NCBI GenBank assembly: GCA_905160935.1
Contig: CAJHZI010000461.1
Location: 272,501 to 336,500, forward strand
Source: Enchytraeus crypticus
Taxonomy: Eukaryota; Annelida; Clitellata; Enchytraeida; Enchytraeidae
Length of the DNA: 64,000 nucleotides
Direction: 5' to 3'
In this document: in pieces, positions 12,701 to 64,000 of the stretch
Layout of the letters: each line of letters opens with the position of its first letter
Numbering within the stretch: the stretch's first letter is position 1
Made by a program: the position numbers and the translations under genes
Notes under the pieces: generated by a model
What the model saw: the letters and a program-made list of their open reading frames with translations, nothing else
The model's database searches: none
Told to the model about the DNA's origin: nothing

Positions 12701-15688
12701 GTTTGAGTTTTTCTCTTACAATATTGCTGAAGTGAGTAGCCAAACCATAGTTTACACTGTATGATGCTTTTGTCCTGCCCAGACTAAACTTTTCAGCCAC
12801 TTTTGAATCGGGAAACATGGATTTAAACAGATCTCGAGTGTCATCTGCAGAACGCATCGAGGCATGGCTTTTGACCATTTTCAAACAATACAGAATTTCC
12901 ATGCGAAAGACTTGATCTAATAAGTACGCATTCATTTTCAAATGCTCCGACACCGCTGGTCGATGCAACTGCAGCAGTTTTTGATGTCGAGCTAGATGAC
13001 GAGGTTACTTCTACCTGTGAACATTTATCTGCTGCTCCAGCAGCTACTGACGGAGTTTTCTCGAATGCTGCCATGTTCTTTAGATGACTTTTGCTTACAG
13101 AGTGACTTATAATAGATTTTTCCCATGTTACTCAAGGAAAAAGTCTTGAAGCAAACAGTGCAACGAGCACTATGTACATCGTCAGCTGGACGAGAGAGCC
13201 AACTTTTCCACTCATCGTGATAGAGCCAATCAGAATTGAAAACAGTTTTTTTACTAGCCATTAAAATTTTGTATCAGAATAATCTAAAAAAATTACAAAT
13301 CAAGAAAATGTTAATTATTATACATTTAAGGTTATCGGGTTAGATTAGGGTCATTCATTTCAATATATTGCTAAAATTTCAGTCGAAAATGGCACGGCTA
13401 TTGCAAAAAATGCAAGTCATGCTAGCTAGCAAATGATGATGAATATCGTGTAACTAAAAAACTTTAAAATATTGAAAATAAACATACATTAACATTAATC
13501 CAGTTAAAAACTAACCAAAGGCTATTAGCAAAAATTGTTTTCTGTGCACAACTTGCCAACTTTGTCAACTACTGCTTAATAATTTGAAATTTCATGTGAC
13601 AAAACTTAGCACATGCTATTCATTTAAATTAATAATGAGGTCTATAAAAGATGGCAAAACAGTGAGACAAAAACTAAACTTGTTTACATGTTTTAAAGTG
13701 TTGCCAATACTTTCTGATTACTTATTACCCATTACAAACACAAAGCCTAAAATAAAGGTTTAACGACTGCTTCCTATGCAATTTTGCCAACAATTGGCGT
13801 CTTAGTGTTTGAATTTTTCATACTAAAAATGTTAAGAATGCCAAAATTCTATTTTCCCTGACTTTTCCCATTTTCCCTGAGTTTTCCCTGACCACTTTCA
13901 AATTCCCTGACTTTTCCAGGTTTTCCATGTTTTCCAGAAGAGTGGTCACCCTGAGATACAGCTAAATGCTATACCTCGTAACATTGTATGAGATCATCAT
14001 AATATTGTTGTTGGAGATAAAGTATCTAACAACCAGCCTTGGGATTGGATGATTGATCGATACATTGCTCATCAGTGAGTTTGACAGCAGAATGTGTCTA
14101 TGAATTATTTGCTCCCTATGATAGGCCATTTACACTGATTTACAGAAATTTTGCACAACTTACAACATTATACTTTTCTTATGTAATATTTTGCGCTGAT
14201 TTCAAATCTGTTTTTGGTTTTGCTCTATCACCCTCTGTTGCTGAGATATTGAGACTTATATCAATATGAAGTTTTACAGAATTATAATTTTAGGACAAAT
14301 ATTTTGTCATAATATGTATTCTATATATAATTACCAGAACAATACATGAGAGATATGAAACTGTAACGCAATTATCATATAATGTAAGAGAAATCTCAGC
14401 ACAAGAGTTGGGACATCTTTGTAACACTCACCATCACTAGAGCCCTTCTTGCACTTGCGCCCAGAAGACTTTTTATCCTCCTCCGCAACTCCTTCACCTG
14501 CTGACTGCTTGTCCATCTGAGATTTCTGTGACTGTTTCACTTTGGATCCATCTCCTGTGCAACAGTTATCAGCAGCAGCAAATAAAAGTTAATCTCCTAA
14601 GAAACAGTATAATGGAGATGTTCCTAAACTACAGCACAATAAAAAAGTTAATCTACTACACTACAGCCATAAGTAGTGCAAGAGAAAAGTTATTATCCTA
14701 CGTTACAGTTATTTATAAGTATAATCAGCAGCATAGAAAAGTTACTCCAGTACACTATAAGCTATGGTATAGATATCATAATCTCCTACAGAAAAGTTAT
14801 AAGCAGAAATGAAAATCTTCTACAAGAAAGTTATAAGTAGAAATGATAATCTCCTATTTTAGTTATTTATAATCAGCAGTATAGAAAAGTTAAACCAATA
14901 CACTATAAGCTATAGTATAGATATGAGGATCTCCTACATGAAAGTATAAGTATAAATGATAACCTCTACAAGAAAGTTATAAGTAGAACTGATAATCTCC
15001 ACAGGAAAGTTATATGTAAAAATAATGAGAATCTCCTACAGGAAATTTATGACTAGAAATGATAATCTCCTACAGGAAAGTTATAAGCAGCAGAGAAAGA
15101 GAGACAGAATCAGCCAAATATAGATATCAAGAAATAAAACTATAAACCAACTTTACTATTGAATACTATTGCATAATGCATCTAAAAAAGTTCTTAGATC
15201 TAATTCACTAATTTGTTCAAATTATACAATTTCTATCAGTATTTTTCATCCAAATTCTGCTAATTATCATATTTTTCCTTATTTCTAGTTCCTGATAACT
15301 TCCAATTGTAAATGTTTACTCACATGACAGTTTAACTATATTTTCCCTATTAACTATTATATATATATATTTTTTGTATATTCAATCAGTACTGCACAGT
15401 ATACTGTATAATCCTGTACATGAAACTACAGTGGGATCAAAATTAATCAACAGTGAATTTTGTCAATAAACTACTAGTTTCAATTAATCACTTAATATAG
15501 ATTGAAAAAGTATATGCAAATTTTGTGTTTTGATCATTGGCTGTTGGCAGAATGTTATCTAACACTTGAGATATATTAGAACCTGAGGCAGCTGCAGCAG
15601 CAGATTTAGCAGCAGCAGCTGCTGCAGCACGTCTCTGCTGTCTCAGCTGTTCTTCCTTCAGCAACACCAAGTGAGCCCTCTTCTCTTG
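6760..15688 (-). CDS. SPAG1: SPAG1 exons 17-22: Ala-rich/basic linker and RPAP3_C domain
   Basis: Exon 17 encodes [20 protein letters not shown] and a poly-Ala run. Exon 18 is Lys/Ser-rich. Exons 19-22 encode the RPAP3_C domain (residues about 957-1074): [55 protein letters not shown] and [11 protein letters not shown], ending QRFSV. The domain follows the helical pattern of human SPAG1/RPAP3 C-termini, which dock RUVBL1/2. Phases from exon 18 to 22 are all 1 and the joined frame stays open. Confidence 0.9.

Positions 15689-64000: not shown

Follow-up and report, generated by a model that had tools for sequence, protein, structure and literature searches.

Tandem arrays built across exon-intron boundaries occur in excess at exon edges in the annelid Enchytraeus crypticus

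Tandem duplications of exon-intron boundaries have been described in amphioxus under the name 'mirages', in Adh3, the globins BflGb6 and BflGb9, TnC and PGBD5 (PMC3087553, PMC3902484). The available text of these papers gives units of ~10-160 bp at both 5' and 3' sites, with many copies that carry AG or GT, and proposes mirages as a route to new introns. For the globins and Adh3 (PMC3087553) and for TnC (PMC3902484), it also provides a precedent for such arrays without aberrant mRNA. Intron gain by tandem duplication (the Rogers model) includes a potato case built from an intron-exon boundary, according to the accessible portion of the report (PMC4974935). Extracts of two further papers describe human internal tandem repeats, in which minisatellites with ~30-bp units alter exon-intron boundaries (PMC2812944), and polyubiquitin genes, in which a repeated AGGT serves as both types of splice site (PMC10809524). 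Among clitellates, earthworm metallothionein genes contain intronic minisatellites and exon-4 duplications that are absent from the transcript; the available part of that account does not describe junction-built units or a genome-wide pattern (PMC12783039). Among the matches listed in a full-text literature search, whose coverage mostly excludes subscription papers, no report of boundary-spanning arrays in annelids was found.

The arrays that we describe in Enchytraeus crypticus are like amphioxus mirages, as far as these are set out in the accessible text, in being minisatellite-like tandem duplications of exon-intron boundaries at both site types. We began from a window, the whole 64-kb stretch of DNA that was analysed, which carries LIMK and SPAG1, has a GC content of ~35% and yields 57 rows in Tandem Repeats Finder (TRF) output. 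The original prediction held that the authentic splice site lies inside the tandem unit in five introns. TRF detected every array named there, and the claim is plainly true of the LIMK exon 7 donor and the LIMK exon 12 acceptor, with weaker cases at SPAG1 exons 10 and 18 and LIMK exon 4. The name SPAG1 and the exon numbers are those of the prediction, and exon content was compared with protein families for the exons stated below. Coordinates are collected in Table 1.

Table 1. Tandem arrays at exon edges in the 64-kb window
Array	Positions	Strand	Description
LIMK exon 7	59770..59992	+	53-bp unit x 4.2, 90% matches, TRF
LIMK exon 12	63545..63919	+	56-bp unit x 6.7, 95% matches, TRF
SPAG1 exon 10	25369..25662	-	58-bp unit x 4.5, TRF 25399-25662
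SPAG1 exon 18	14550..15090	-	degenerate 34/148-bp array, TRF from 14720
LIMK exon 4	54264..54589	+	18-bp unit x 18, 67% matches, TRF to 54574
SPAG1 exon 12	23151..23616	-	47-bp unit x 9.9; flanking, not spanning
SPAG1 exon 19	10294..10516	-	46/94-bp array; flanking
LIMK exon 8 donor	60726..60808	+	31-bp unit x 2.8; flanking, absent from the original prediction

The LIMK exon 7 unit, inside the TRF array, carries the 5' splice site and 21 exonic bases. Writing ^ for the splice point, GCTACCAAG^GT occurs four times (at 59782, 59835, 59888 and 59941); the authentic donor follows 59790 and three decoy donors lie downstream. At exon 12, the unit as delimited by TRF takes in the 3' splice site together with 17 bases from the start of the exon, and TAG^(A/G)ATGGTAGC occurs seven times from 63562 to 63898. 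The last copy is the authentic one, with the exon starting at 63903, and six decoy acceptors stand upstream. When the junction window was compared with the rest of its array, 39 of 41 bases matched at exon 7 and 34 of 44 at exon 12, levels reached by 0 of 1000 shuffles in either case.

The SPAG1 exon 10 TRF array ends 17 bp before the exon, which starts at 25381 on the minus strand. TTATTTC is common to the authentic copy at 25381 and four upstream relatives, three of which have an intact AG, and the AG^CCTTATTTC of the authentic site is repeated in three upstream units. The junction window matches at 20 of 31 bases (13/1000 shuffles), and its 13 exonic bases alone match at 11 (1/1000 shuffles). 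At SPAG1 exon 18 (exon start 14554) the unit resembles the acceptor and includes about 5 exonic bases (23/33 matches, 0/500 shuffles). The weakest of the five is LIMK exon 4, where the array runs towards the acceptor of an exon starting at 54588 and the common part, AG^TG, holds two exonic bases (19/26 matches, 5/500 shuffles). Arrays had also been placed close to the acceptors of SPAG1 exons 12 and 19, as we find: they begin 10 bp upstream of the exon start at 23140 and ~13-21 bp upstream of that at ~10280. The LIMK exon 8 array begins 16 bp past the donor (exon end 60709).

The LIMK exons are correctly annotated, as the prediction required. Exons 7-12, when joined, match LIM domain kinase 1 (E = 6.5e-67) in an ungapped alignment that crosses the affected junctions and extends from the glycine loop to the DFG motif. 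A Pfam match to TPR_2 (E = 5e-5), under the curated cut-off, marks SPAG1 exon 10 as TPR-like; no Pfam match was found for SPAG1 exon 12. For the window alone, a rough hand estimate predicts ~0.8 junction arrays by seeding or ~4.6 by coverage, compared with 4-5 seen.

Several other features of the window were noted. A 14-bp unit x 20 with 99% matches (50759-51042) is open in several frames on both strands and is probably a very young array. By eye, a dispersed element resembling CTTAAATCCCAGTTTAACCAGGGT recurs in both orientations at 9062-9170, 56100-56400, 56650-56940 and 58780-58850. Three open frames, likewise judged by eye, look like a LINE endonuclease/reverse transcriptase (2211-5216, plus strand), a hAT-like transposase (11004-13273, minus strand) and a piggyBac-like transposase (19077-19700, plus strand).

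We then sampled the 524,188,772-base assembly (802 contigs), in which the window lies on contig C368. The sample consists of 120 exons outside the window, on 68 contigs other than C368, picked by Pfam match without regard to arrays: the top 30 of 81 Myosin_head matches, the top 30 of 82 DHC_N2 (dynein) matches, Kinesin matches 3 to 42 of 128 (the first two, long single frames, were left out) and 20 of 83 ABC_membrane matches, dispersed among contigs so as to keep clear of tandem gene clusters. The ABC set was added after the pattern had been seen. Where neighbouring stretches were split, one flank of some kinesin stretches falls short of 500 bases. TRF was run with the same settings as for the window, at periods of at least 10. 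Arrays proved dense, with 214 merged arrays in the 120 loci, and the 203 that face a called junction enter the distance classes below.

Splice sites were called by an iterated weight matrix with some hand corrections, and the sites used are those inferred from protein homology. An array was counted as spanning a junction if it included at least 8 exonic and at least 8 intronic bases. Loci L032 and L084 were left out as exons, as were edges at the ends of Pfam models; the acceptor calls of L095 and L117 were dropped as homology overshoot; and splice calls in L035, L058, L072, L077 and L114 were hand-corrected from protein homology. The uncorrected spanning count was 20/222, from which the corrections took out the L077 donor and the L095 acceptor to leave 18/220. 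A second test used raw homology edges with no splice calls, counting arrays from -50 to +40 bp.

Several further loci were of separate interest. In L032 (C178:637933-639147), DHC_N2 is matched from 4 to 403 of 403 in one uninterrupted frame of 1177 amino acids, unlike the other listed dynein matches, which cover single exons; it is possibly an intronless retrocopy. Mitochondrial DNA may have been copied into the nucleus at L063-L067, nuclear stretches that match COX1, in one case below the family cut-off; in most of them, stops other than TGA are scattered along the sequence. The mitochondrial COX1 itself lies on contig C802, where TGA is read as Trp and conserved positions call for Ser at AGA/AGG and Lys at AAA. 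The gene order there, nad3, nad2, cox1, cox2, atp8, cox3 (genes other than COX1 recognised by eye), follows the annelid ground plan. The mitochondrial code and this order mark the host as an annelid.

Arrays were found in excess at the edges of the sampled exons. With each array counted once, at its pre-expansion length, random seeding predicts 6.01 spanned junctions, and 18 of 220 were spanned (P = 5.8e-5). A further 25 arrays start within the first 30 bp of the intron; between 60 and 420 bp the density is 3.83 per 30 bp (P = 6.4e-13). Spanning arrays occur at donors (10) and acceptors (8) and in all four families: dynein (7/56 junctions), myosin (5/59), kinesin (3/70) and ABC transporters (3/35, against 0.70 expected in that set alone).

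At raw homology edges, 48 of 212 arrays of all unit lengths were counted, with 23.2 expected; for units of at least 25 bp, the count was 36 of 118 against 14.0, a value reached in 0 of 100000 simulations. The excess persisted when these longer-unit arrays were restricted to matches of at least 90% (17/44 vs 5.7) or at least 95% (10/24 vs 3.0). Units of 10-24 bp showed no excess at raw edges (12/94 vs 9.2 expected); at called junctions, 8 such arrays stood no more than 30 bp away, compared with 2.42. Over the first 100 exons, 19.1 arrays were expected at raw edges and 40 were seen; this result held with any one family left out, being weakest without dynein (23 vs 13.2, 374/100000 simulations). 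These data indicate that the junction-array pattern is general in the sampled part of the genome.

How arrays are counted matters for part of this result. A simple base-coverage test, which counts each array by its length, found no excess at junctions: 18 of 220 junctions lie inside arrays, compared with roughly 9-23% of nearby intron bases. We regard the once-per-array count as fairer because copying multiplies intron bases but not junctions. The conclusion about spanning arrays rests on the choice of this null, and the pile-up at 0-30 bp is independent of it. Enrichment of junction-containing arrays over random intron positions had been named as the touchstone of the prediction; taken literally, by raw coverage, it is absent, and with each array counted once over the 220 junctions it is present.

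As had been claimed, the arrays are not copies of one element but the outcome of a recurring process. Among the 18 spanning units, only those of L024 and L072 share sequence, 17 bases of a TGAT repeat, and we therefore rejected a single transposon, satellite or dispersed repeat family, the one shared stretch being a simple repeat. Two further observations concern individual loci. The kinesin exon L072 (C597) carries a junction-spanning array at its acceptor (58 bp) and a separate one at its donor (115 bp). Directly upstream of the acceptor sides of L024, L072, L091, L097, L099, L100 and L101 are runs resembling TGATTGAT, which by eye look like repeated branch-point-like motifs.

We found 101 copies of the 18 spanned junctions, of which 90 keep an intact GT or AG. 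In 12 of the 18 arrays the authentic site scores above the decoy mean (average 6.95 vs 5.25). The claim that decoy use leads to a stop needs qualification: a frameshift or stop is predicted for 75 of the 90 intact decoys, and the remaining 15 are in frame and open and are predicted to add in-frame peptide repeats. These 15 come from L020, L035, L059 and L120, whose unit lengths are divisible by three. At L035 (C199, DHC_N2), 33-bp acceptor decoys are partly open in frame and mimic dynein sequence, and the Pfam match begins inside the array and runs through decoy copies. This locus is a possible path to coding repeats. It is also an annotation trap, and annotators should be warned of it.

We consider it probable that these arrays are mirages in the amphioxus sense, that is, minisatellites that arise by local tandem duplication crossing or abutting an exon-intron boundary and are seeded preferentially at exon edges, with the decoys passive. 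The data favour a first step in which new tandem duplications of ~30-150 bp would be commoner at exon edges than elsewhere in introns. By its geometry, a duplication that crosses a junction would leave the exon intact: the outermost copy still leads into the exon, and the remaining copies all land in the intron. Such a duplication would be near neutral provided that the outermost site is still chosen. Copies would then grow by slippage or unequal exchange, as is standard for minisatellites, to give a row of near-identical decoys. Selection may hold the exonic copy while intronic copies drift, and old arrays would thereby lose their visible exonic part. The single test of this last step gave no support: flanking arrays had no in-register exonic trace (mean z 0.16, 21 of 27 testable), in a test insensitive enough to miss 4 of 18 known spanning arrays. 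That flanking arrays are decayed spanning arrays is thus unsupported, no residual in-register similarity having been found by this insensitive test. On this mechanism decoys would be by-products, for which a function is unnecessary.

Two alternatives dispense with any bias in origin. If arrays form frequently and all over introns, junction cases could reflect chance and the attention of a reader; the observed density predicts ~6 spanned junctions among the 220, and raw coverage is indeed lower at junctions than inside introns. We think this improbable given the excess of spanning arrays and of arrays within 30 bp of junctions in exons picked without regard to arrays, and given the raw-edge result for longer units. 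Survival bias is also unlikely, if somewhat less so: arrays would form evenly, and those touching an exon would persist, since deletions removing them are purged with the exon. It predicts near-exon enrichment that decays over tens of bases, as seen, and calls for no special mutation. Array identity, which is a rough measure of age, argues against it. The 34 arrays with matches of at least 95% include 7 that span a junction and another 5 no more than 30 bp from one, compared with 0.42 per 30 bp at distance; the excess is likewise present at raw edges in this class. The 87 arrays below 85% include 1 spanning array and 13 within 30 bp of a junction. Spanning arrays, where recognised, are more uniform than distant ones, not less (median match 92% vs 86%, P = 0.001), a difference to which the lost recognisability of old spanning arrays contributes in part, since these are harder to recognise and the spanning class therefore appears younger than it is. 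The excess among the youngest arrays points to a bias in origin rather than in survival, with exon edges as likely places for new repeats to arise. Of the three explanations originally offered, it is thus the one that places the bias at exon edges that we favour; that exon-edge copies do little harm fits as a permissive condition, which by itself gives no excess.

The other explanation offered there, that tandem splice sites have a function, found no support. On this reading decoys are kept for unproductive or regulated splicing, which would fit the high proportion with an intact GT or AG and the frequent predicted loss of frame. However, decoys agree with the authentic copy at 191/202 dinucleotide bases (94.6%) and at 1878/2048 bases elsewhere (91.7%), proportions that do not differ significantly (P = 0.18), and decoy dinucleotides are neither clearly kept nor purged. 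In addition, 10 of the 18 affected introns share position and phase with a paralogue on another contig that has no spanning array, and amphioxus mirages are reported, in the available text, not to disturb splicing (PMC3087553, PMC3902484). A functional role is therefore very unlikely. The arrays could instead be remnants of intron gain, in which exon segments that carry AGGT were duplicated in tandem, as in the Rogers model; AG^GT is present at 8 of 10 spanning donors, and a related model was proposed for amphioxus mirages in the part of that paper available (PMC3087553). We give this reading hardly any credence. AG^GT is about as frequent at other donors (62/97, P = 0.49), and 7 of 8 spanning acceptors lack it. 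The 10 shared intron positions compare with 2.6 of 18 expected from shifted positions, and the rate is the same as for unaffected junctions (108/202). At L114, four ABC paralogues have the same intron position without a spanning array; the other 8 of 18 intron positions are not shared by any sampled paralogue. Therefore, many arrays formed on existing introns.

The preferred reading, boundary-seeded minisatellites with passive decoys, places the E. crypticus arrays among known structures. As in amphioxus mirages, units combine exonic and intronic sequence across a splice site (the two plain window cases and the 18 sampled junctions), and most copies carry splice dinucleotides. Amphioxus mirages, as far as the published text available shows, are described from single genes of a chordate, whereas the E. 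crypticus arrays belong to an annelid, exceed chance expectation over a sampled set of junctions and have been stratified by array identity. Rogers-type intron gain is similar, in the portion of the report available, in its local tandem duplication with splice signals (PMC4974935), and differs in that at least 10 of the 18 E. crypticus introns seem older than their arrays and the rate of AG^GT is ordinary. The human and polyubiquitin cases, according to the extracts available, concern recent segmental duplicates or repeat-coding genes with changed transcripts, whereas ours lie in dynein, myosin, kinesin and ABC exons. Earthworm metallothionein is a case of intron minisatellites in another clitellate. 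The kind of structure is already known; the phylum is new, and the arrays are commoner than the published single cases suggest. What is apparently new is its abundance in an annelid, together with the evidence for a bias in origin.

More broadly, a mutational process aimed at exon-intron boundaries might seed minisatellites at thousands of junctions in this annelid, by extrapolation, and so provide a continual supply of duplicated splice sites from which exons could be extended and in-frame peptide repeats or new introns could arise. We offer this only tentatively, as an idea that may well not hold. Candidate causes of a boundary bias would include, for example, co-transcriptional splicing, R-loops and exon-positioned chromatin. 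If exon edges truly are where duplication prefers to start, the layout of exons influences the sites at which mutations occur. A laboratory soil worm would then allow duplicated splice sites to be followed as they form, spread and, now and then, become coding repeats or new introns.
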